Under the pieces are notes generated by a model. That model saw only the letters and a program-made list of their open reading frames with translations, searched no databases and was not told the DNA's origin. The position numbers and the translations under genes were made by a program. From Mytilus galloprovincialis (taxonomy: Eukaryota > Mollusca > Bivalvia > Mytilida > Mytilidae): DNA of 64,000 nucleotides. The stretch's first letter is position 1. Each line of letters begins with the position of its first letter. Positions 786 through 64,000 of the stretch are shown here, one piece after another. Location of the stretch: the NCBI RefSeq assembly GCF_965363235.1, contig NC_134851.1, positions 54,006,833 to 54,070,832 of the forward strand, read 5' to 3'.

Positions 786-3700
786 ATGGCTGCTGCAAAA
801 ACATGGAAACCCGAATGGAAACAAGATGTTGTTTACCTGCATGTATTTCCTAGGATAATGTCAAAAGGAGTCCCTAATTTCTCTCCGTTTGCAGTAAAGT
901 TAGAAACGTGGTTAAGAATAAATAAAATCCCATTTGAAGTAAGTATATTTAACTAAATTATACTTAAAATTATTGCAAAAAAAATGCACATGTATTAAGT
1001 TGTTTGACAATATCAACGTACATTGTATGCACAATTTAAAAGATCGAGATTTAATAAATGTGAACGTGTCACGTGTTTTGGTCACACGTCTCTTCGGATA
1101 CATGTATCTGCACTCTTATTTGAAAAATCGGAAACAACGTCGGTAATAAGGAGCTTACAAATAAAAAGGTCCATCCTGAGTCGCTTTGGTCTGGAACATC
1201 TAAGTAAACAAAGTAAGGCCCGAAATGAATCTTACAAGGAACATATATTATAATAAAAAAATCGTCCTGAACATGCATGAAATATTTGCCACTGAACGTT
1301 AAGCAACCAACAATCAATCAATATAATAAATGATTTACCATTGAGTAAACGACAAAACTTCTAACAAAAATGCAGAACAATTTAAAATTATAGCAATACA
1401 AATGTTATATTATTTAAGAATTGAATGCTTCTTTTTGTAACTTCATTGGGGTGTAAAAGCGTTGACCGAAGTACATTTTGTATGAAGGCCCTATATTCAC
1501 ATCATTGTCAGTCCGTATTGGAAATATTGGCCCTATATTCACATTTAATGTATATAATACAGCATTCAGAACAAGTCTGTATTGAAAAATTTGGATTATT
1601 TAATAAAAGTGTTATGAACTGGCTGTTTCTGTATTGGCACTGGTATAGATTCTCGGTCAGCTGTATTGGCCCTCGACCATATTTACTCGGGTGATATTAA
1701 TGATTGTGTTGCTATATTCTGACTCACAGTAAATGACACAACAGTACAGGAATTCACGAATATTTAAAAACATGATCAAAATATCTATTGTAGGTGGTAG
1801 ATCACATGGGTATGTCGACAAAAGGTCAAAGTCCATTTATTGTATTTAACCAAAAGGAATACCCCGATTCCAACTTTATAATTGAATATCTGACAGATTA
1901 TTTCTCCGTTTCTATGGAGAACTGTTTATCAGATGTCGAGAAGGCAGTATCGAGGGCATTTCTCAAAATGATTGAGGAAGATATGACTTGGTAAGATGGT
2001 TAAACATGCATGTACACTTGTTTATAAAAAAAAGATATTATGTGGTTTGATTTCCAATGAGGCAAATACGACAAAGGCGTTGAAGTAGTGTCCATCAATT
2101 CTGTTGTGGATCGATAATCTACATGTAGCAGCATTCAACCATCAAGCAAGTTAGAATAGTCATTTTATATGAATATTGTCATTTCCCTTATCGCACACTT
2201 TTTATTTACTTGAAAAGTTACAATGTTTTTATATCTATTAAATATTAAAATAATAACAGGACAATTGATACAAGTACGTTGATGCTCAATTTGTATTTTT
2301 GATAAAGGCTATCTGAATTTTAAACTTTAGAGAGTAGAAGTGTTTCAAAATACATGTACTTTTTCCGTCTGAAACATTCAAAGCACGATGTATATAGTCG
2401 TTACATACAATTAGCGATGTTTCAAACGTGTAATTACATCAATAATTTCGTTTTCTGAGAAGCCGATATGGTTATTTTTTCAATACCTACATGCATAAAT
2501 CACTTCAACTTACCAACAGCATATATAAAAAAAAACCATACTTTGTGAATAATTCCGGTCAAATGTAAATTTGTAAATGTCATCCCGCTCCTGTCAATTT
2601 TAAAATCGTAACTTTCAATGAATTTCGAAACAACGATGTACAAAAGAAACCACAGTAAACTTTTATTGTGGTTTTTTTTCTACTAATCTCCTGTATATGC
2701 TATAAAATAGATAATCAACAAATAAATCAAACACAAATATGTTTTCTGTAAGTCTCATTTAGTTTGAAAGAATCATTTGCTTAAATTAGATATCGGTCCG
2801 CAATTCTTTTAAAACCATGGTTAAATATGGACTGGAAACTTTTTTTCGAGCCGTGAGTCCTTCTGCGTGATGTCAAATTTCTATTTTAGCAGTTTGATCG
2901 ATACTAAATTTATGATTTTGATAAAGGGTATGTCACAAATTTTCGGGACTTCGAGATTTATATTTTCGTTTATCATTTTTTCGAGTTAGATAAAATAGTG
3001 AACAATTGATCAACGGGTTAGAGCAGACTAACAGAAACCGTATATCAAATAGGTTAGGTCCTAGAAATCTCGACATCAACCACATTAATTACAGTTATTT
3101 AAAATGCATGTAACAATTGAGAAAAGAAAATGATCTTATGTTTCAGGTCTATATTTTGGTACAGATATGTTGATCACTTCGTCGATGAGTATTTAGAATA
3201 TTTAAAACCAAGTGATGATCCAGAAAAAGCGAAGGCATTTGCAGAACATCTTGGTAGTAGTGTAAGTAAGCTGGTTCACATTCGTGAGAACTTTTACAAT
3301 TGGAAATAATGAAACATTTTCACCCTTGCAAACACTGATAACTTGAACTCTTTTAAAAATTGTTGGACCTTCTCTGCAAGGATGTTATAGATATATAAGT
3401 TTACAGGGGAAAATCTAAAAAAAAAACCAACCAATTTGCCTTATGCATATGTAGTCACATCAAAATGGCTGATATGCAGCAAATAGGAACACTTTTGAAA
3501 ATTAGTCTGGAAGCAAATTCAAACTGACTGAATCAGATCCGAATTAAGCATTTTTGAATGAAAATACATCGAAAAGACCGCTCAGCTATTAAGCAGAGAA
3601 CAATAAAGGCTTTTTCTATACCAATGTCAAACTGTACATCGCTCCATTTAACATTCGTCCTGAACATGCACAAATATGAGCCACTAGACGTTTAAGCAAA

Positions 3701-4990
3701 CAACAATTAATCAACTATTCAATGCACCACTTTATTCTATCTTACAGGTAAAAAATAGAGCAGTTTCACATGGAATAGGTCGTCACAGCAACGAAGAAAT
3801 ATACAAAATCGGAAGTGACGATATCAGAGCCATATCAAAATATTTAGGCGACAAGACATTTATGATGGGAGATAACCCAACTCTGGTATTCGTTATTTTT
3901 AGTAGAGTGTTATACAGTGAAACCTGTATAAACCGAATCTTGTGTAAACCGAAAACCTGCATATAAACCAAACATGTTCGTAAGCACTGTCATATCAATT
4001 TTATGTGTTATGAACCTGATAAAACCGAACATCGACCAAAAGCGAACAAAATATTAAGTACTGAAGAGGTTCGATTTAAATAGGTTTCACTGTATGCTAT
4101 CAAATTATTTGCGCTTTGATATTTGCATTTAGGGAAATACGAAACAGCAATCCTACGATATATAAAATGTTTTGCTATTTACTGTCAATTCCAAGTTTTG
4201 ATCAAGTCAATATATAATATATCAGTGACTGCCGTGGAAAGTAAGCTTGGAATTTATAGTTAATATAAATACACTTTATTCATAGTATATACATGTATAT
4301 GTTCATAGTGTACAGAAAAACGCGAATATAATTGAAATTAACAGAAAAAAAATAAGGTACTTTGGAAAAAGGGGAAGGGTCAACAAAATTGTTCAGTTCC
4401 CAAGTACATATGACTTTTAATATCTTTCCTGAAATTCTCCAGTTATAAAATCTTTTACAAAAAAATCATCCTATAACAGTTAATATACTCTCAATCACGC
4501 TTTATATGCCCGCGATTTCGCGGCTGTGTTCTAGTTTGACTTTTAAAACACCAAACTTATCCCGAATTCAATTTCATGAACGGTCTTATTGTCTTTTCCT
4601 GTGTAGAATGGATTTGTTTATTCTTTTTGTTTTAATGAAACGCGGCAAATAACAGACATCATCTCGAGTAAAAACTCAAAACACGTTGAATCAAATGCTT
4701 CCTTATACATAATGATTTTTTCTTTAAGAAATTATTTCGATACTCTCCTTGTCTTTACATCTTGCTTGAATATTATTGGAAAAGAAAGGTTTTCAAAGAT
4801 ATTTGAAACTAATGTTGTTGTGTTTTTTCAGATTGACTGTTGCCTGTTTGGTTTTATTATCCAGATCACAGATGTTCAAATAAACTTTCCGATGAGAGAC
4901 GTTATTAAAAAAGAATGTCCAAATATATTACAATTTGTAAATAGAGTTAAAACAAAATACTGGTCGGACTGGGACAAACAATCTATATAA
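786..4990 (+). CDS. Failed axon connections (FAXC)/metaxin-like GST-fold protein, five exons
   Basis: Exons by GT-AG sites and matching phases: 786-938, 1794-1990, 3147-3261, 3748-3885, 4832-4990 (with stop), giving 762 bases and 253 residues. Exon 1 carries the thioredoxin-like start (VVYLHVFPR, then FSPFAVKLETWLRINKIPFE). Exon 2 has the substrate-loop region (GQSPFIVFN, then DSNFIIEYL). Exon 3 has WYRYVDHF. Exon 4 has the family signature GIGRHSNEEIYKIG followed by LGDKTFMMGDNPTL. Exon 5 closes the GST C-terminal helices and ends YWSDWDKQSI. Drosophila fax interacts genetically with Abl in axon guidance; bivalves carry many related copies. Vertebrate FAXC is longer (about 400 residues) with an N-terminal membrane anchor that is absent here, so this is either a soluble short paralogue or an upstream exon is missed. 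The ATG at 786 is the first just before the conserved domain. The donor after exon 4 (GTATTC) is weak. No catalytic glutathione site is claimed. Confidence 0.86.
3915..4092. mobile_element. Short TIR element (Tc1/mariner-like MITE) in intron 4
   Basis: The ends are inverted: CAGTGAAACCTGTATAAACC at the left and the near-complement AAATAGGTTTCACTG at the right, each flanked by TA (3913-3914 and 4093-4094). A 178-bp length, TA duplication and these ends fit non-autonomous Tc1/mariner elements. It lies only about 29 bases past the exon 4 donor of the FAXC-like gene. Confidence 0.7.
4093..4831. other. Intron 4 remainder, nothing recognised
   Basis: AT-rich intronic sequence without recognisable coding or repeat structure apart from short A and T runs. 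It ends in a good pyrimidine tract (TGTGTTTTTTCAG) before exon 5. Confidence 0.4.
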
Positions 4991-5001
4991 TAGAATAGAA
5001 T

Positions 5002-5007
5002 AATAAA
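5002..5007 (+). terminator. Poly(A) signal AATAAA of FAXC-like gene
   Basis: AATAAA lies 12 bases after the stop codon of the FAXC-like gene. It is very close to the stop, so a more distal signal may also be used. Confidence 0.45.
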
Positions 5008-5012
5008 TAAAA

Positions 5013-5905
5013 GGTGGAAATGAGGCTTACGATATTTTCTGCTTCGCTCAATGCGATATCGCCTAAAAAAGGGACGGAACCATTATTAAAACGGTATCAC
5101 CAAAGTTTAACTTGTCATGCTAGATTTGAAACACATTGTTGATATGGTGAATATTATTTATGATTTCTCAAATTGCTGGGTACCGTCTTCAAAATTTTCC
5201 CAACCAATAAGAAAAGAGAAGAAGTCGTGTTTTACGAGTAAAAAATTTAGTTAACTTTGATTAGAAATTGGATGTTTTATGAGTTTAATTGCACAATTGC
5301 AATTCATAGTTTTGTGACATCCTTGAGACTGCGTTATATACATGTAGCTACATTTGTATAACTCAAATGTAAAGAAATCTTATCAAAGTACGGGTTTTGC
5401 ATGTTCCTTTACTCCCTTTAAGTATCGCAAATAAAACATTTCAAATGTTTCCATCCAAATCAGTCATTAATTCCTCGGGTAATTGTTTCTGGGTTGATAT
5501 TTTTAGTTACAAAATGATGTTAAACTTGTCAGAAAATTTTATAACTTGTGCAAGGTTTAGGAATCTAAGCACTGTTCTAAAAATATAAATGATCTCTTGT
5601 GTAAGTGTAATCTTTAAAAAATGGAGTTATCTTTCTTTGATTTCAAGTACATTGATTATTACGAATTGTCAAGTCATCTGGAACACTAATGTTTTTGCTT
5701 ACCCTGAGTTTTTCAAATATTTCGATGTCATTGACGGATTACCAACATCTACTAGTTTTCGTTTGGTCGTCTTTAAAATGATTTGTAGCAATTTTCTCAC
5801 TTGCTTTTTTCATTCTGAGCTTATATTTCAGCAAATATATGGTTTCAAATACAAAATTGTAAGGATATCATCTCAACTTGTCAGAAATAAAACGATTGTG
5901 AATGT
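5013..5905. other. Intergenic, nothing recognised
   Basis: AT-rich. It contains one 120-codon open frame (5589-5951) whose composition looks like translated AT-rich noncoding DNA. No family was recognised on either strand. Confidence 0.35.
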
Positions 5906-6414
5906 TCTTTTTCTCAAACTCATAGTGAGGTGTTCATTTAGATATCGATAACGAGACATCTGTGAATTAATCTCAAGTCTGAGAGAAGATTAAATAGTTA
6001 GTAGCTGTAATAGATTTTGAATTAGGTTGAAGCAAAGACGAGTGTTTATTTTTTAGTAAGTGTTTTTTGTTTTTCTGTTAATGCCGATCTATTAACTTAA
6101 GTCATTCCAATTGACGTTTACAGTCTGCACAGCGATGTTAAGGCTGATCAAGGCTATTTCGATAAGATTTCGTCAGGGGCAGATAACCCCGTATGGACCT
6201 CATTATTTATTCATATATTCATTAATGGCGGAGCTGCGTCTATCGATGAAACAGTATGTACTTAATATGTTTTGCTGTTACACCATTGTACCATGTTAAG
6301 GGAGTGTTGAGCGCCAAGAGACATGCATGTTTAATCCCGCATCATTCTACAAATGTATATTAGTTGCCCCAAGACCAGAGCCTGTTACTCAGTCATTGGT
6401 TCATGCCTGTCATT

Positions 6415-12271: not shown

Positions 12272-13231
12272 TTAATCCATGTAGTTAAACCTGTCTTCCA
12301 TTGCATACGATTCTACAGCTGGTCCGTCATGTCCAGATGATGCAACGCCATCATTATTATTCTGAGTTTGTTTGTTTTCCCCTCCTTCTAATGTTTCATA
12401 CAAGTCAACGGAGGTCATGCCAATCACTATGACATTTTTCAGTGAAAAAATGGATATTCCACGACTTAAACCATGCCATAAGATCATCCGGGTTATCAGT
12501 AACGGTAAATTGACGACGAATGCGAGTAACACTTTGTGAATCATAACAAGCTTATGTGAAAGTTTGGCTTCTCCATACTTAGTTTTAGAAAGAGTGATGA
12601 GCGGTATTGTTGGTAATATAAAATTAATAAGGGCGATAGCAATAATAGCATCATCCACTCCTGTTGGAAACGTGTCCCTTTCCTCTTTAAAAAACAACAT
12701 TTCCATACTGTCAACGCAATCAAGAATATCGAAGATTACAGTCCCAGTCAATTCGTCGATATATTTTCTTCTCGGGGAACCAGGCTTAGCATCATGATTT
12801 GTCGCTAACAACAATGCAAATACAATACCGCCCAGAGCAATAGTAGTTTTCAATGTATTTGGTCCGAAAAATATGTATTCACTTAGAAGAAAAGCAAAAT
12901 CCTTGAAGGCAATACCTACTTTGATCGCAAGTAATGTGGAGTAAGCAAACCACGATATTGGAACAAACAGCAGACTAGCCGACTCTGGATCAGCCTCCTT
13001 ATCTCCGTTTGGTTTCGCACGATTTAGATGTCTATACGAAAGAAAAAAGCACAAACATAGCACTATGGCAACCACTATATCTGCTCCGATAAACGCAAGC
13101 CACGCCTTCCCTTTATATGTCACTAAATAATAATCAAGTATTCCTGCTTGCAGAAAATGAAAACATAGACATAGAAATCTGCTAGGAAAATGTTTCACAG
13201 CTTTAAAACATTTTGTAAAAACGTTTGCCAT
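12272..13231 (-). CDS. TMEM121/CECR6-family multi-pass membrane protein, copy 1
   Basis: Uninterrupted 319-residue frame, the usual length of vertebrate TMEM121. Start chosen at ATG 13231 (MANVFTK). Hydrophobic segments lie near residues 17-36, 44-64, 84-105, 124-142, 184-205 and 222-245. Family-like signatures are YYLV before segment 2, IFDILDCVDSMEMLFF in the centre, LPTIPLITLSK, HKVLLAFVVNLPLLITRMIL and the ISIFSLKNVIVIG..LYETL block. The tail is Asn/Gly-rich and ends MEDRFNYMD. Vertebrate TMEM121 ('hole') is linked to heart development and MAPK signalling; its molecular activity is unclear. The whole CDS sits in one exon. A good acceptor (TCTCTTTGTAG) puts the exon start at 13279, so a 5' UTR exon probably lies upstream. 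It differs from copy 2 at about 17 of 319 residues. The family call is by pattern recognition. Confidence 0.85.
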   Translation of the reverse strand: MANVFTKCFKAVKHFPSRFLCLCFHFLQAGILDYYLVTYKGKAWLAFIGADIVVAIVLCLCFFLSYRHLNRAKPNGDKEADPESASLLFVPISWFAYSTLLAIKVGIAFKDFAFLLSEYIFFGPNTLKTTIALGGIVFALLLATNHDAKPGSPRRKYIDELTGTVIFDILDCVDSMEMLFFKEERDTFPTGVDDAIIAIALINFILPTIPLITLSKTKYGEAKLSHKLVMIHKVLLAFVVNLPLLITRMILWHGLSRGISIFSLKNVIVIGMTSVDLYETLEGGENKQTQNNNDGVASSGHDGPAVESYAMEDRFNYMD

Positions 13232-13236
13232 TTCTA

Positions 13237-13257
13237 TCAACGTGTCTGGTCAAACAT
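13237..13257 (-). promoter_or_regulatory. Upstream ORF in the 5' leader of TMEM121-like copy 1
   Basis: An ATG six bases' clearance upstream of the main start opens a six-codon frame (MFDQTR) that stops at TGA before the main ATG. In copy 2 the equivalent ATG reads ATA, so the uORF is absent there. It could reduce translation of copy 1 only. Confidence 0.5.
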
Positions 13258-25253: not shown

Positions 25254-26213
25254 TTAATCCATGTAGTTAAACCTGTCTTCCATTGCATACGATTCTACAG
25301 CTGGTCCGTCCTGTCCAGACGGTGAAACGCCATCATTATTATTCTGAGTTTGTTCGTTTTCTCCTCCTTCTAATGTTTCATACAAGTCAAAAGAGATCAT
25401 TCCAATCACTATGACATTTTTTAGTGAAAAAATGGATATTCCACGACTTAAACCATGCCATAAGATCATCCGGGTTATAAGTAAGGGTAAATTGACAACG
25501 AATGCGAGTAACACTTTGTGAATCATAACAAGCTTATGTGAAAGTTTGGCCTCTCCATACTTAGTTTTAGAAAGAGTGATTAGCGGTATTGTAGGTAATA
25601 TAAAATTAATAAGCGCAATACCAATAATAGCATCATCCATTCCTGTTGGAAAAGTGTCCCTTTCCTCTTTAAAAAACAGGATTTCCATACTGTCTACGCA
25701 GTCAAGAATGTCAAATATTACTGTTCCCGTCAATTCGTCGATATATTTTCTTCTTGGGGAACCAGGCTTAGCATCATGATTTGTCGCTAACAACAGTGCA
25801 AATATAACGCCGCCTAGAGCAATAGTAGTTTTCAATGTATTTGGTCCGAAAAAAATTTCTTCACTTAGAAGAAAAACAAAATCCTTGAAGGCAATTCCTA
25901 CTTTGATCGCAAGTAATGTGGAGTAAGCAAACCATGATATTGGAACGAACAGCAGACTAGCCGACTCTGGATCAGCCTCCTTATCTCCCTTTGGTTTCGC
26001 ACGATTTAGATGTCTGTACGAAAGAAAAAAGCACAAACATAGCACTATGGCAACCACTATATCTGCTGCAATACACGCAAGCCATGCCTTCCCTTTATAT
26101 GTCACTAAATAATAATCAAGTATTCCTGCTTGCAGAAAATGAAAACATAGACATAGAAATCTGCTAGGAAAATGTTTCACAGCTTTACAACATTTTGTAA
26201 AAACGTTTGCCAT
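25254..26213 (-). CDS. TMEM121/CECR6-family multi-pass membrane protein, copy 2
   Basis: Intact 319-residue frame from ATG 26213. Topology and motifs match copy 1. Substitutions include F to C at residue 9, F to C and G to A in hydrophobic segment 2, A to V and Y to E around DFVFLLSEEIFF, and several in the Asn-rich tail (EQTQNNNDGVSPSGQDGP). Most changes are conservative and the frame is open, so both copies are probably functional. The conserved acceptor (CTCTTTGTAG) places the exon start at 26261. The 3' 292 bases are part of the perfect tandem duplication, so this gene is followed by a second copy of its own 3' end. A plus-strand 77-codon frame at 25546-25779 is only its shadow. Confidence 0.86.
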   Translation of the reverse strand: MANVFTKCCKAVKHFPSRFLCLCFHFLQAGILDYYLVTYKGKAWLACIAADIVVAIVLCLCFFLSYRHLNRAKPKGDKEADPESASLLFVPISWFAYSTLLAIKVGIAFKDFVFLLSEEIFFGPNTLKTTIALGGVIFALLLATNHDAKPGSPRRKYIDELTGTVIFDILDCVDSMEILFFKEERDTFPTGMDDAIIGIALINFILPTIPLITLSKTKYGEAKLSHKLVMIHKVLLAFVVNLPLLITRMILWHGLSRGISIFSLKNVIVIGMISFDLYETLEGGENEQTQNNNDGVSPSGQDGPAVESYAMEDRFNYMD

Positions 26214-26654
26214 TTCTATCAACGTGTCTGTTCAAATATGTACTGTTCACCTTGGAGAAAGCTACAAAGAGAAAACAATATGATGATCATTTCAAGTGAC
26301 AAATGACGTTGAATTAAATCAATGATATAATATTTCCATGGTGAATTATATTTGGTTGCTTGGTAACTTTTGCGTAGCAAATCATGACTTTTGAATTTGC
26401 AGTGATCATGACGAGTTTCTGAATTTACTTACGAATTTACGAGGAACGCAAAAGCATAAAGATAAAGAGCGGGATAAAAGGTTCAAGACCATTAAATATA
26501 AGGTCAACAAATCAATATGCATTTTAGTTGTGCGTACATGTAATGAATAGCAGGAGTTCGAATCCTGGTGAGGGAAGAAATAAAAGTTACTTCCATAAAT
26601 TTTTACACTTAACATTGGTGTGCTGTTATTTAGAGTAATCACACAAATAATACA

Positions 26655-45668: not shown

Positions 45669-48600
45669 TCATAAAACAATAAAACCTACCGCGTATGTCC
45701 AGTAGTTCCAAAGATAGTCAAATCGACCTTCAAAGGTTTCGTCAAATTTCTTTTCAAAATACGCATCAAATAACCTTACAATTTCATTAGCCTCCGTAAG
45801 AAATAGAGTACGTTCATCCTCTTTTACTGATGAATTTTTCCTATAAAGCACGTCTTCTGATAAATTGAAGATTTTCAAAATATCTCCTGAGAGATTTTTG
45901 TCGCGATCACATGGAATTCCAGACCATCCTTGAAAAGGTTTTTCAATTGAATCAATACGTTCGATTATTTGACGTAAAACAATAAGTTCACAATCGCCCA
46001 ATGAACATCCAGTCTTTAAAAACTTCCTTATTCTTGGAAATTTTTTATAACGATACATCTGTGTTTTTATTTGCCCTTCTGTCATCTTGCTCTCTAATAA
46101 AATCCATTCACGGACAATATCTGTGAATATGTTTTGAACAATTTGTACCATGTGACCTATGGTTGGCAATATATCATCATTTTGCTCATCTACAGCTAGA
46201 GGCCTAGAGGTTGGTTTCGGAAGAAAATCCGATTCTAGAGTTTTCTGTCCATGAGTTGACTTTGTCTGTATAGTTTCCAAAGTTTGAATTCCAGTTTCTA
46301 ATACAACCGGTGATTGTACGGGCTCTTTCATATCCGGTTTTGGTTGAGCACTGGCTAAGAATAGTGATGGCTTTAATGAATGTTGTTTTGTATCTAAAAT
46401 ATGTATTTGCAACTAACAATTCAAGAGTCAGTGTTATAAAAAAAAGGAATAGAAATGTTTTTTGTAAAAGAAAGATATCTGAATTGGTTTAAGGTTGAAA
46501 GGAAATGTGCAACACGTTCGGATAGACTATTTAAATTGTAAAAACAAAGCGATACTTTAAACTCGAAGTAATTGTCAAAATTCAAACACAATACCAACAC
46601 AATTTAATGTTTATCAAATATACAATTTTTTATTATAGAACTGCCAGAAATAGATTTTTAGGGAAAGACCATTTATTTTTAAAAGGAGGGGAGAGGGGTT
46701 GTGCTTTTTTTTTCTTCTAAATATATATATTATAATCTCCAAATTGATGAAGAAAAAAAATACTTTGGTCAAGCAGATGACAATTTTTTTTTATTAACCA
46801 GATTTTCCCGATACCTTAAATTGTCTAATATCTAAAAAAATAAATAATTGACAGCATTGAAAAACTAATAACATTTATCGTTTTTAGGGCGAAAACAAAT
46901 TTCGGACTCCATAAGACAATTTTTGACGTTTGAATGAGTTTTTCATATCTAACGTTTTCGGCCTCGAGTCTTATTGAGACAAACATCAGCTGTTGAAAAG
47001 TGTATCTGGTGCAGTAAAATTGGTCCACTTGTTATTATTTCTGATAGAATGACAGAAAATATTGTACAAAACACTTCTATTTAAAGTTATTTATAGTTTT
47101 CTGTTGTAAGCTAAGAAAAATAATTTGACCATCTCAGTAGCTATTCACAAGCAAGTGAGGTATATTTTTAGTTACCATTCAGGAATATAAACCAATTAAA
47201 TACAGTTGTAAACAAATAAAGCATGCTTATATAGACCTTCCTACGCGTAGCAATATGAGAAAACCCAATATGTGTAATAAAAAAGTGAAATAATTAACCA
47301 TAGGACATTCAAATAGTCAAACAAAACAATAAATTAGTTTGGTTATAAAACATTATATTTGAAAAAAGGTCAACTTTTAAAACTCATTGTTGTACTCTTT
47401 TTTAAAACAAATTTACATTTGCTAACTTTGTAACTTTGTAAGCATTATTTGTTGTCCACCATTTTCTATCGAAATAAACTTATCATAGATACCAGGATTA
47501 AATTTTGTATTTACGTCAGACGCGTGATTCGTCTACAAAAGACTCATCAGTGACGCTTGAGTCCAAAAAAGTTTAAAAGGCTAAATGAAGTACAAAGTTG
47601 AAGAGCATTGAGGCTCGAAATAGAAATAACTGTTAGATAATTGTAACAAACAACGCTGTACAATTTTTGTCTCATTTGACCGAATTACTTGTACCAAGAA
47701 ATATATTCTTTGTGGGATCAAAATTTGGTAAAACCTTTTCCGTAGCGCTACATGTATATACTGGTTATTTTTCAATACCTTACAATAATTGTTTTCTTAT
47801 ATCTTGAAATAACTGATCCAAAAATTAACTGTTGCTATTTGTTCTATCAGTGTTGCGATTTTCTATGTGTTTCCCAAAACACATATTCTGGTTAGTATAA
47901 TAGAACTAGGATAAAACAATTATGCACAAACGTTGTCACGTTTTTAAGTCTTGTAACAGGTGATGGTTAAGTTATCAAATATTTCCAATTGTACAATTTA
48001 ATATTTTTTAAGTACGTCAAACATACCTGGCATGCCTTTTTTGTACGATTCCATCTGTAAGAAAACAAATGCAGGACGATTGATATCTATTTGTCCTGCT
48101 TCGCATATCATTCGAAGTAAAGAACGAATGGCATTGTGCAATTCAGAACTTTTTGTAAAAATCACTTTTTTCATTTCAAGATGAATGGTGATGCACTTTT
48201 CCTCAGAGTCTACAATACGGAAAGGGTCGTTCTCTTTTCGTTGATTTTCAGATATATTTGTTAATCTTTCTGAGATATCCTGTTCAGACCAGTTCTTCGG
48301 CAGATCAGCAGTGCATTTGATTTGCACATTTTCTGATTCTAGAAAACATAAGTAATGGAAATAAATTTTTATTTAGACAAGTTAATAAAATATGTAACGA
48401 TGCAATACCCTTTCCATGAAATGCAATGTCTTTGATATATCAGATATGTTTTTTGATACATGAAACTCGTCAGTTACGCTACTTTGAAAGTATATCGACT
48501 GCGGACGAAGTCGATAAGTTTTTAAATTCGACAAATCCTTGTATCAACATAATACGGTACAATTGAAAGATAAAATTATTATATCCTTATTGATATTAAT

Positions 48601-51600: not shown

Positions 51601-54600
51601 CAAGAACTGTCATATTCCTGACTTGGTACAGGCATTTTCAAATGTAGAAACTACGTCTAAGGTAATCTATTCCTGGGATAAAAAAATCCTTAGCTTTTCG
51701 AAAACAAATTCTAAGTTTAGTAAACAGGAAATTTATAAAAATGACCGTATAATTGATATTCATGTATGACTACTTGACTGGTGATACCCTCGGGGACGAA
51801 ACGCTTAATTCATTTTTAAACCAACAACTGTCCTGATAAAAATGTTACACTCGAAACGACGTCCGGTCTCTAATTGACGTCCGTTCCTCAAATCGACGTC
51901 CGTTTCACAAATCGACGTCCAATATTATGATACTCTAATCGACGTATACTATGACGCCATGTATTGCCAAAACGACGTCCGATTGATTGTAGTTGTCTTA
52001 CATACATGTATCAGTAAACAACAAATTTCTGGACTTAATTTACACTCATACATGTACATGTTTTGTAGGGTTCTTATGACAAATAAATTTTCAAACATTT
52101 ATACAATAGTCACATACTTTCCATATAGATTTACAAAAATACAATGTAGGTAACATGCATATTAATGTTTATCTTGATAAAATGTTAATCCAATCGATCT
52201 ACATAATGGTGTCTTTCCTATTCCTATTCCTATTAATACATGACATGCATGTAAGTGTAGGTCAATGAGGAAGCAACCCAACGACAACGAAAACCAAACG
52301 ACATCTATGAGCATTATTCAGTCCGCAACAATAGACAAAATGTAGAAGTATATACAGCCAATTGTGTTGAGAGTACTATTATTTGTTTCTGCAAGGTATT
52401 TTCACCTGGAATAAAATATATACGCCAGAAATTGGCATTATGTTTTTATGCTCTGCTATTACACCACTGTGTTGGTTACGTTTAACCCCCACATATTCTT
52501 CATGAGCCTGTAATGCAGGGATTTTCGATGGTTTATGTCTGTCATATTTGTTTTTCGGAAGTGTTTTTTTTTAAATAAATAAGACCGTCAATTTTCTAAT
52601 TAACATTTTTTACATTATTCATCTCATGGCCTTTTATAGCCTTTGTGGTATATGTTTTTATCATTGTCGAAAGCCGTCCGGTTGCAGTGCAGTGGGTGTC
52701 GATGGTTTATGTCTGTCATATTAGTTTTTCGGAATTGTTTTTTATTTTATAAATAAGACCGTTAATTTTCTAATTTGAATTGTTTACATTATTCATGTCA
52801 TGTCTTTTGTGGTATATGTTTTTATTATTGTTGAAAGCCGTACGGTTGCCCATAATTGCGCTCAAATCTGTTGCATATATTGGAAATCGAATCACATCTT
52901 CTTATTTTTATGTATTCTCTAAAATTTCAAATTTGATACCACAACCTGTTTACATACTTAGTCTTGTGGACCAGAACATAAGATAGTTGTATTTTGAACC
53001 AGTTCATACGTAGATCGTTCTAAACTTTATCTTAAAATATTTAAATTTCGCAACGTTATGCATAGTTTTTTCTTTAAATTGAAATGATGTAATTACATAA
53101 ATTTCCGTTTGATTGATATAGTATAATTTAAGTGACCTAATACGAAATATATGGGGTCAGTGAATTCCATATTGGATGAGAGCGAAGGGGTAGTAACTCC
53201 TTACTAACCCCATATAGTGACTAACGATGTATGGTAACTAGCCCTACATTTTTTAGGACACCATATATCAAATATACATAGTCACCACGTGTGTTTCTTT
53301 AACCAATCATTTCTCTATAAATAATAATAGGTTTCGTTTAGATTGTTTTTAGCATGTTTAATAGACCATGTTTCTGTTTGACAGTCGTATTTTCCTGTCC
53401 GTACCGCCCATAGGTCATTAAATTATTACAGTGTTTATTAACAAAGATTTGACTCTCGATCTTTTCAATTCAATTTTATGGAAAAACGAGCGAAAATGCA
53501 TATGATTTTTTTGTTGACCTCTTGATAGATATATGTCTTTGGTTTCAGAAAAGGTTAATTTATGTAATATTCCGTGAAAATGTTGTAAACAAATTAAAGC
53601 TGAATATTTTTTGACTTGTATATCTACTGGAAATTATTAACTGATGGAATGTTAATCAATAGGAAGACAAAGATTATAGTTAATTCATCCATTACACTAT
53701 ATCAGTACACGCCCAGCAATACACACAAAAATTATAGCAGATGCGCCGTAAACAAGGATGTACTCATAAAATACTGGTAATCTTTTTTGCGACGAAAATA
53801 AATTATATGTGTTTCACTTACAGTTTCAAACTCTGATAGCCTACAATGTAGTGCTTCGGATTGATCTCTTGCAAAACTTCTGGATTTCAAGTTTTTAATT
53901 TCACGTTCCACTGAAAGGAGATAATGCTTTTTTGGACCAACTTGTCCTGCGAATTCTTTAATGACATGTTCCAGTGTCTTCCAAATATTCTCATACTCCG
54001 AATAAGTTAAGACAAATGTTCGAGGTAAATTGCATATCTTAATTCTTTGTTCTTGCAATTTGGTTAGAAAGTTGAGTTGATATGGCCTTAGTTCCCGGCA
54101 TTCTCGTAAAATAAAAGTAATTGTCGTTATGTCTAAAGTATCTACTTGTGAGTGTTTTGGTCTGAATTGGCAAATGCATTCCTGGATAATTCTTTGACTT
54201 GTTTCTCTGACATGACTCATGTTTCGCATTGTTTTATCACTCTCAAACAGTTTTAAAAAAACTTCACTATCCATAGCCTTTGTAACACAGAACCTTTCCT
54301 CTACACAATGACAACAATCTATTGGACTGCTCCATTTGTGAAAAAGATAATGTCTATAATGTTCTAGGAAGAAAACAAATGAGTTTTTATATCTTGGTAA
54401 AATGTTCGAATCGACAAAAGCAGCGAGTACTGCTGGAGCTGTATCTAAACTCAATTGTAGCAGCCTAGAGTAATCTTCGGTATCTATTCTATCCATATAA
54501 CCTGCGAAAAGAAGAAAAAATAAAGTAATATAGAATAGAAGCTTTATATATATTAATCTTAAGTCCTGTTATTGAAGCCATAATATTCGTCAAATCAACT

Positions 54601-60530: not shown

Positions 60531-61727
60531 TTTCCACACTGTGTCTAAACCACACCGGCAAAATTTGTTCGGACTCGATGGTATCTAACATCCGGCACAA
60601 TGACGGAACATTAATAGACAGAAGAAAGCTAGGTTTCTCCTTATTTTCTTATTTTTTTATGATATCGAAGAAAATATATACATATACAACTATTTTCTAT
60701 TGTAATATGCAATATTTTCTACAACCGTTTTATATTAACGGAGAAAAAAGTAAAAATGCATGTCAAAATGACGAATTGAGTGAACCTTGCCTCGAAAATG
60801 TTTAATTTCTCGTTAAATTGTTCACATTGTACGGAAAGAAAGGTACGAGAAGAAAGATACTGACACGGAGATTGCAAAACTTGTTTTTATGAACATCTCA
60901 ATACTTATATTTCTGAGTAGGGAACGAAAGAAATGGGTCATGTCAAAATGGAACTGGCCGGTTTCGTCAATGTTTACCATCCGGTTTGGTCATAGAATTC
61001 ACAATGCACAACCCGGTTTGGTCAAATATAACAAAAATCATAACCGCATTGCATTATAATTGATAATTTAACTTCAGTGTTAAAAAGGGGTTTTGTGACC
61101 GGGTCGTTGAAAAACAAGTTCTTTCACAGGACAACGGCTTATTATTCATATGATTAGTCTCAAATTCAAATAAATAATAAGCAAACACTAGATTTCCTAC
61201 TCTTATAGAACACAAATAATTTTAATTTTACTTTGCATTCAAAAATGTTTAACAGCAAAATACATTTAAATGAAGGTTATAACGCAAATTGAGGTTAAAG
61301 CTCTCAAATATGCGTTTTCTATATGAATTATGGAAAATATGTTGAAACTTGAAATTAGAGTTAAACTTTACGATCTTAAAAAATCGAAACACACGATTGA
61401 TATGTGATTTTCTCGTACAATAGGATGGACACCTTTATAAGTAATCTAATCATTCTATGTATGTAATCTTTTCTATGATTGTTAAAAGTAAATCTTCTTA
61501 AGGATAAACGTTGATGATAATACAAATGTTTATATAAAATAAAATTGAGAATGGAAATGGGGAATGTGCCAAAGAGACAACAACCCGACCATAGAAAAAA
61601 AAAACAACAGCAGAAGGTCACCATGGAAAAATGAATGGAAAAACAACAGCAGAAGGTCGACATGGAAAAATGAATGTTTATAGGAAGAAAAGGATTACAA
61701 CTACCATGCATCAAAGGTGGGGTCGAT

Positions 61728-61747
61728 TGGGGGGGGGGGGGGGGGGG
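61728..61747. repeat. Poly(G) tract
   Basis: About 19 consecutive G inside the long-TIR element; it follows CGATTG and precedes CTATC. Such runs are error-prone in assemblies. Confidence 0.85.
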
Positions 61748-62316
61748 CTATCTATACGTCTTCTAGATTCGCCACTTATAAAGTGTATATCGATTTAAAA
61801 TATTGTAAGAAATAAGAAAACAGGGATACCCGCGAAATCGGATTATGTGAGTCTGATTTTTTTATTATAAACATTCTCATTGATATTTTTAAACAAGTGA
61901 CACTAGGTGATTCGAAGTCATAGCGTTTTGAACTACATGTATTTGTATAAAGCTGCATATGTCAAAAGATAGAAGGTTTGACTGTAACATATACAAGTAT
62001 GGAACACAGATCTAACGATTTTTTTCCCTATTTGCCATATGTCCACTGCCCTTGCCCTTGACTTCATTTCTATATTATTTTTCCTTCTGCCACAGACATT
62101 CACCATAAATTGAATTGCGACCATTTAATCATTTGTGACAAGTCAGTGCGTTCACTTAAATATAAATAATATGTCTTTTTTTTTTTATTGAAAAAAAAAC
62201 GCCAGTGAAGTTGTTTGCTATGTCCGATCCGGTTCGTGAAATTTGAATTTTTCAGTTGTTAGACATTTTTTTAAATTCAAGAACGGTGTAATTTTGTTTG
62301 GAATTCATGATTGTTT

Positions 62317-62640
62317 TTAGCTCACTTGACCTAACAGGAAAAGTTTTTTTTTTTCATCACTTGGCACCGGTCGACCGTCGTTCATTATCTTTCAATACAA
62401 TTATTTACATAAATGTTCACATCTAAAATTATTAGGCTGCATTTAACAAACCTTATTTAAAATCATATGTCTTTTTTAATTATAATTAGGGTATCAAGTT
62501 TTTAAAAGTTTACTGTGACCCCGCTTGTCAACCAAGATGGCCTTCGTGGCTAAGAAATAAACAAAGGGGGCATGCAAGTGCATGATGTCAATTATTTAAA
62601 AACAGCCGTAGACATAGACAATTCGAAAGGGCCAGATGAT
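62317..62640. repeat. Common bivalve repeat, worn copy
   Basis: TAGCTCACTTGACCTAACAG, ATCACTTGGCACCGG, GACCGTCGTTC, and further on AAGATGGCCTTCGTGGCTAA and AAATAAACAAAGGGGGCATG match a repeat I know from many bivalve genomes, here nested in the long-TIR element. Confidence 0.55.
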
Positions 62641-62952
62641 TATCTTCAAAATCTTGAGCTCTACCATTTGTCCATTTACTATAAAATTCTCACATTAGTT
62701 CTTAAAGGAGTTATTGCATTGCCCTTAAATGACGAATTTGAAGTTCTTTTTATCAATTTCTATCTATTATTTTCAAACATATATATATAAGTCATATAGC
62801 AAAAATGACTTAGGAAGTCAAGAAGATATACAAATAAATCGACTTGGCCGATATCCTAATAAAACTTTTGACCTTTAATTAAGAGGTTTTTTTCATTTCA
62901 TTGCGTTTTAACACGCCCGTCAAAATTTTGACAGGACGTATTATTGTATACA

Positions 62953-63060
62953 TCCGTCCGTCCGTCTGTCCTTCCTTCCATACGTCCGTTCCTCCATCTA
63001 TCATGATCAGTCTTTCTGTCCGTCCGTCCGTCTATCCGTCCGTCTATACTTCCGTCCAGC
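62953..63060. repeat. GTCC/TCCG microsatellite
   Basis: Repeated CCGTCCGTCCGTCTGTCC-type units with interruptions, in the interior of the long-TIR element. Confidence 0.85.
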
Positions 63061-64000
63061 GTAAACATGTCGAACATGAGTACTGTAATTACCTATGTAA
63101 ATAAATGTAAACACGCCAAGTTTACTTTATAATAAATATATATTTAAATTCTTTCGAAAGAAAATGTTCAGATCCGTGTTAACGTTACTTTTTATAAATT
63201 GTCGGTTTTAAAAAAAATATAAAAAACCGGGTGATATATATAGACGAAACCTGGTGATTGTTAGTAAACAACAATGACAAAACCGGTGTATTTAATTTGA
63301 CATGACCCATTTCTTTCGTTCCATACACAGAAATACAAGAACTGAGATGCTCTAGTTTGCAATCTCCGTGTCAGTATCTATCTTTTCGTACCTTTCTTTC
63401 CGTGTAATGTGAACAATTTAACGAGAAATTAAACAATTTCGAGGCAAGGTTCACTCAATTTGTCATTTTGACATGCATTTTTACTTATTTCTCCGTTAAT
63501 ATAGAACGGTTGTAGAAAATATTCCATATCACAATAGAAAATAGTTGTATATGTATATATATTCTTTGATATCATTAAAAAAATAAGAAAATAAGGAGAA
63601 ACCTAGCTTTCTTCTGTCTATTAATGTTCCGTCATTGTGCCGGATGTTAGATACCATCGAGTCCGAACAAATTTTGCCGGTGTGGTTTAGACACAGTGTT
63701 CCAATGTGTATTTAAAATTCATTTTCACGTGAAACAAATGTTGTTTGTCATCCTTTAGACAAAAACTGTTCGACGCCGAAACTCTGTTCAAGGATTTGAA
63801 CCACCAAATTTTTTTTTCTTCATATTCTCGAAAAATCATGTGGAGAGAAAACGTTTACGATCAAAAGAAAAATAATATTAATTCTTTGAAAAAAAAACCA
63901 AAAAATTTTATTTTAGAATTCAAATAATAAAGTTTTAATAGTGCTCAAAAGCAACAACAAAATGTTTAGGACATTGCTGTAAAATCCAGTTTAGAAGATA

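Follow-up and report, generated by a model that had tools for sequence, protein, structure and literature searches.

A dispersed family of non-autonomous DNA transposons with long terminal inverted repeats, CAC ends and 5-bp target-site duplications in Mytilus galloprovincialis

A 64,000-nucleotide stretch of the Mytilus galloprovincialis genome (contig NC_134851.1, positions 54,006,833 to 54,070,832 of the forward strand; hereafter the window) carries near its right end a repeat bounded by CACTGTG...CACAGTG, with long terminal inverted repeats (TIRs). It belongs to a genuine family of non-autonomous DNA transposons with well-defined boundaries. Our favoured explanation, to which we assign a probability of roughly 0.5, is that the window holds one copy of a dispersed family of this kind, whose enzyme most likely belongs to the CMCT clade (EnSpm, Mirage, Chapaev, Transib and kin). 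The coordinates first proposed for the element, with a flanking 5-bp TTCCA duplication, proved correct, and the same boundary is fixed by other copies (Table 1). A boundary one base longer (ACACTGTG, leaving a 3-bp TCC target-site duplication, TSD) fits the window copy alone and is contradicted by the others. The arms, originally put at about 480 bp, are indeed long; that length was slightly excessive, since comparison with other copies sets them at 438 bp on the left (A side) and 428 bp on the right (B side). Their outermost 124 bp are 100% complementary, including one base beyond the element, and identity drops inward to 94% in the next 227-bp block and then to 89% and 82%. The DNA fold of the element end was unremarkable (z -1.34), and at gathering thresholds Rfam gave no match in the window.

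The terminal 31-mer, allowing at most 3 mismatches, occurred at 578 places (286 forward, 292 reverse) in the 1.385 Gb genome (331 contigs, the window being on contig C14), while its reversed-pattern control occurred at none. The first 100 places, all exact and located on contigs C1, C2 and part of C3, were detailed; among these listed matches, 78 places formed 39 convergent pairs and 22 had no listed partner. If the 578 termini are paired, the family comprises roughly 290 elements. Flanks were compared in 42 elements, namely the 39 listed pairs, the window element and two long pairs chosen for their length (individual loci carry L numbers). A perfect 5-bp TSD at the CACTGTG...CACAGTG boundary was found in 40 of the 42; the exceptions were L056, with 4/5 bases alike, and L079/L080, with a 4-base repeat. 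Shuffling right flanks among elements for 2,000 rounds gave a mean of 1.3 five-base matches and a maximum of 8. Two elements about 250 kb apart on contig C1 (L052 and L053) have identical flanks and the same GATGT duplication, and represent either an insertion copied by segmental duplication or one held twice in the assembly; counting them once, the 40 perfect TSDs mark 39 distinct insertion sites. The duplication length originally read from a single copy passed this comparison, being 5 bp in 40 of the 42 elements.

The heptamer by itself did not serve as a family marker, as CACTGTG near GGG occurred at 2,440 places against 7,439 for the reversed control. Searches with altered continuations of the end were similarly unproductive: a search for CACTGTGNNTAAACC followed by different bases found 32 places, below the 97 of its reversed control and by eye without a convergent pair, and one for the first 19 bp followed by different bases found a single place. 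From these searches, a partner that shares the first 19 bp and differs afterwards, at the two positions tested, is unlikely. One repeated version, CACTGTGCTTAAACCTACAAAA, sits inside long open frames at the one locus read (L067), which by eye look like those of a long interspersed nuclear element.

Twenty-two elements of 2,655–10,885 bp were read whole: the window copy, 19 obtained from 20 regions (two of which held the same element) and two more. Across the copies compared, a typical TIR measures about 438 bp, and most copies have in common about 1 kb on the A side and about 0.6 kb on the B side. The centre between these sides is a patchwork that differs in each copy. Even so, every 200-bp bin of the shortest whole element (L066) is common to at least 10 other elements. 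Within the window copy, the interior stretch 61760–62720 recurs at full or nearly full length at no fewer than 17 other places with 87–92% identity (40 scored of 682 candidates). Adjoining the 39-bp tandem pair of the interior is the string GGAATGTGCCAAAGAGACAACAACCCGACCA (61556–61640), presumably a common repeat of bivalve genomes. A separate array of long direct repeats, about 1–2 kb apart and up to 86% alike, occupies positions 3076–6100 of locus L070, inside an element of 8.25 kb.

We inspected the six longest open frames of at least 90 amino acids (aa) in 20 of these elements and the eight longest of at least 80 aa in the other two. No DDE transposase was recognized by eye among the longest frames of the 22 whole elements, which supports the conclusion that the family is non-autonomous and moved in trans. 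Ten chosen frames gave no Pfam match above cut-off. An autonomous copy was considered among the long members; those of 6.9, 8.0, 8.25, 8.4 and 10.9 kb were read, and no transposase was recognized in them. A shared B-side frame of about 100 aa was likewise considered as a transposase remnant and was not convincing as a gene: differences numbered 73, 49 and 90 at first, second and third codon positions, frameshifts were present in most rows, and Pfam analysis of one copy gave no match. The 10.9-kb element holds long frames at L049 2364–8399 that we take, from their motifs, to resemble Ty3/gypsy-type retroelements. Two frames in a 4.9-kb element (L055 1797–3045, minus strand), neither with a Pfam match above cut-off, are presumably reverse-transcriptase-like, judging again from motifs.

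The two ends of an element resemble each other more than they resemble the ends of other elements. In the outer 122 bp, an element's own ends differ by 2.1%, against 5.6% when an A end is compared with a B end from another element, and in 21 of 22 elements the opposite end of the same element is closer than the median opposite end. To follow this inward, we left out L048, L049, L054 and L058, whose arms are broken by insertions; in the remaining subset, own ends and different elements compare at 1.9% versus 5.6% in the outer 122 bp, 2.1% versus 3.6% at positions 123–250 and 7.3% versus 8.8% at positions 251–438, the end-to-end link being weak in the two inner blocks. Five diagnostic positions (32, 75, 76, 85 and 93) are alike at both ends in 19 of 22 elements, and the other three show a single odd base or gap at one end and no change of type. 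Of 40 scored termini, which were selected by their match to the window end, 29 (counting the window's own two) show no difference from it over 122–124 bp; mean identity to that end then falls inward from 99.97% to 93.5%, 91.8% and 88.8% (26 of 30 loci, after dropping the window's own two ends and the poorly aligned L018 and L022).

The window's terminal type, T,T,T,G,C at the diagnostic positions, occurs on two interior backgrounds, the first comprising the window, L047 and L069 and the second L048, L055, L059, L062 and L070. On the second background, the type switches between positions 93 and 112 at 5/5 A ends and beyond position 170 at 3/5 B ends (L048, L059 and L062). The window, L069 and L070 were sampled by or through this type, so its share of the sample is no estimate of its frequency. 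Since one terminal type sits on two interior backgrounds, exchange is needed; gene conversion, both among elements and from arm to arm, would explain the cassette pattern. A requirement of the enzyme for matched ends is a bolder alternative to gene conversion. Chimeric copies of Galileo, similarly, have both TIRs from one subfamily and the centre from another (PMC3573991).

Inward-reading copies of the motif CCGGTTTNGTC (at most one mismatch) lie close to the inner limits of the two arms. On the A side they stand at about +423, +446 and +478, with two or more sites in all 22 whole elements and with displacement by an insertion in L058; on the B side they stand at about -423 and -456 in 21 of 22, being displaced in L048 and L054 and absent in L049. 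Within the 22 elements, 108 of 113 matches fall in this array, whereas mononucleotide shuffles gave 2.0 in all; the copies bearing the motif are related, hence not independent. The A-side motif columns (21 rows) have a conservation of 0.991 versus 0.975 in neighbouring columns, a value reached in 215 of 5,000 random placements, and the B-side columns (19 rows) 0.988 versus 0.941, reached in 168 of 5,000. The array may represent transposase-binding sites.

The family inserts preferentially into AT-rich targets, the GC content of the TSDs being 18.5% against 33.4% in the flanks. Among the 40 perfect TSDs, the first position is A in 21, T in 11, G in 7 and C in 1, and the fifth is T in 20, A in 15, C in 3 and G in 2; the preceding base is C or T in 31 and the following base A or G in 28. 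The column make-up is thus roughly symmetric (Y|RWNWY|R). A strict palindromic target was rejected, and an AT-rich preference is claimed instead, because single sites are no more self-complementary than shuffled ones (12 vs 12.1, 18 vs 14.9 and 14 vs 13.7 of 39). The scarcity of C at the first and G at the last position contrasts with the published GC bias of ProtoRAG TSDs, shared by Transib and RAG (PMC8289069), and with the target motif CCANTGG of the Drosophila Transibs hopper and transib2, which make 5-bp TSDs (PMC3276498); the six fixed positions of that motif are matched at 25.6% by the present sites.

In the outside-in direction, CACTGTG forms the end not only of the window copy but also of the other elements inspected. 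It had been equated with the heptamer of the V(D)J recombination signal sequence (RSS). As a usable RSS heptamer it stands; identity with the consensus does not, because read in that direction it differs from CACAGTG at position 4, the two being reverse complements since CACNGTG is nearly palindromic. The consensus RSS heptamer is CACAGTG and that of ProtoRAG CACTATG (PMC8289069). In a high-throughput V(D)J recombination assay, CACTGTG ranked top when the spacer began TT and third when it began AT (PMC9723617); the two bases that follow it here are TC, a spacer start outside the table passage of that source. The consensus of protostome RAG-like (RAGL) elements, CACTWMCAAACKTYKBB, whose TSDs are invariably 5 bp (PMC7204232), agrees with the window end CACTGTGTCTAAACC, ungapped, in CACT only.

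These features lead us to propose the following route. A DDE transposase whose gene lies elsewhere or has been lost would bind the ends and cut just outside CAC; for binding, it may use the conserved outermost 30 bp or so and the repeated CCGGTTTNGTC sites. The element would then be joined to its target with a 5-bp stagger, and host gap repair would generate the TSD. Nested insertion and deletion would alter the interiors, while the outer 100–170 bp or so would be swapped between elements and gene conversion would homogenize an element's two ends. The CMCT clade, with mostly CA...TG ends and TSDs of 2–5 bp (PMC12730594), provides the best candidates for such an enzyme.

Several observations weigh against this proposal. 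The element fits no named superfamily securely, and its enzyme class is read from the grammar of ends and TSD, no autonomous partner having been found; longer coding members could lie outside the 100 termini listed of the 578. To our knowledge, Transib alone within CMCT makes 5-bp TSDs, and the AT-rich target preference does not fit Transib. The added conservation of the CCGGTTTNGTC columns is slight, and matched ends within one element could also be expected from plain descent. Regarding the rest of the clade, EnSpm/CACTA and Chapaev share CAC...GTG-type ends with the present family; Chapaev duplicates 4 bp, and the 2–4 bp expected of the two groups differs from the 5 bp found here. For EnSpm families, the TSD is 3 bp (PMC12730594).

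The element was originally regarded as a possible passenger of a RAG-like or Transib transposase. Its non-autonomous nature is upheld; RAG/Transib ancestry is not demonstrated, the targets being AT-rich and only CACT being shared with RAGL ends. We consider it rather unlikely that the element is a genuine non-autonomous member of Transib or RAGL whose RSS-type heptamer is cleaved by a RAG1-like transposase. Such an element would account for the CAC ends, the RSS-like heptamer, its good performance in the recombination assay (PMC9723617) and the 5-bp TSD; moreover, protostome RAGL TIRs start with CACT, and non-autonomous ones are present in a pearl oyster (PMC7204232). The AT-rich targets are the main evidence against membership, and arms of about 435 bp are a further difference from Transib, RAGL and ProtoRAG elements. 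The target mismatch lowers this possibility without eliminating it, because target motifs can shift within a superfamily. In the window and a set of element loci, three RAG1/Transib queries found nothing better than E 1.0. Four genome queries, all without a positive control, yielded no match: the Pfam RAG1 model and a BbRAG1L fragment gave 0 first-look candidates each, a Transib sequence gave 5 and a Helicoverpa Transib stretch gave 2. The same method scored 150 hAT matches, many in long open frames, and can therefore detect transposases in this genome; an empty protein search is nonetheless no proof of absence. An empty Transib search is also unsurprising because autonomous Transibs are described as having one or at most a few copies (PMC4411706). 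On the other side, a survey of molluscan genomes reports one Transib element (PMC10294476). The RAG/Transib link is thus only partly supported and is weakened.

A hAT5-type transposase is an improbable source. The hAT TIRs are usually short, those of hAT5 included, and their end motif is different, while no hAT sequence was recognized within the present elements and, on visual inspection, no hAT place of the 150 adjoined those family termini that are known, a part of the total. In its favour are the abundance of hAT domains in the genome and the 5-bp TSD that hAT5 transposons produce (PMC12730594).

Galileo ends start with CACTG. Nevertheless, assignment to the P superfamily, as a Galileo-like long-TIR element, or to the Mutator group has a very low likelihood. 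Speaking for it, Drosophila Galileo combines long TIRs and highly variable interiors with chimeras and with target motifs that are palindromic and AT-rich (PMC3573991, PMC4168063), and MuDR/IS256 relatives have 4–10-bp TSDs (PMC10045372); the 7- or 8-bp TSDs of Galileo, with target motif GTANTAC, stand against 5 bp in 40 of 42 elements here.

More speculatively, and with little weight, the family might belong to an undescribed RAG/Transib-related CMCT lineage that retained the CAC cut and 5-bp stagger, shifted from GC-rich to AT-rich targets and recognized its long arms by an array of subterminal sites, with three at one end and two at the opposite one. If only elements with matched ends were mobilized in such a lineage, one terminal type would come to lie at both ends on at least two interiors. 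The original suggestion of a new family fits in the plain sense; the titles and abstract openings surveyed in the literature described no such family, which transposon databases may nonetheless list.

If the enzyme proves to be RAG1-like, the family would offer hundreds of natural substrates for studying the divergence of ends, spacing and target choice, with a bearing on the transposons ancestral to V(D)J recombination. If it is not RAG1-like, CAC ends and a 5-bp duplication are insufficient to show RAG ancestry. The family also exemplifies how long arms let a terminal cassette pass between interiors. As known so far, it is an ordinary kind of repeat whose helper enzyme would be encoded elsewhere or lost.

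Table 1. Coordinates of the element and its parts in the window.
Feature	Position	Strand	Remark
Whole non-autonomous element	60537..63698	.	3,162 bp, CACTGTG...CACAGTG
Left TSD	60532..60536	.	TTCCA
Right TSD	63699..63703	.	TTCCA
Left (A-side) TIR	60537..60974	+	length set by comparison with other copies
Right (B-side) TIR	63271..63698	-	length set by comparison with other copies
Outer terminal cassette, left	60537..60658	+	122 bp; type T,T,T,G,C
Outer terminal cassette, right	63577..63698	-	same type
Subterminal motif, A side	60958..60968	+	CCGGTTTCGTC
Subterminal motif, A side	60981..60991	+	CCGGTTTGGTC
Subterminal motif, A side	61013..61023	+	CCGGTTTGGTC
Subterminal motif, B side	63276..63286	-	CCGGTTTTGTC
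Subterminal motif, B side	63243..63253	-	CAGGTTTCGTC, one mismatch
A side, common to most copies compared	60537..61534	.	about 1 kb
Variable interior	61535..63098	.	
39-bp tandem pair	61600-61676		in variable interior
G run	near 61730		in variable interior
TCCG-rich module	about 62726-63075		in variable interior
B side, common to most copies compared	63099..63698	.	about 0.6 kb

Elsewhere in the window, two long open frames of 247 and 254 aa (45669–46412 and 53732–54496, both on the minus strand) gave no Pfam match at E 0.01. Two near-identical frames of 322 aa, at 12272–13240 and 25254–26222 on the minus strand, belong to the CECR6/TMEM121 family (PF14997, E 2.9e-40 and 1.9e-39); lying about 13 kb apart, they are likely the product of a segmental duplication.
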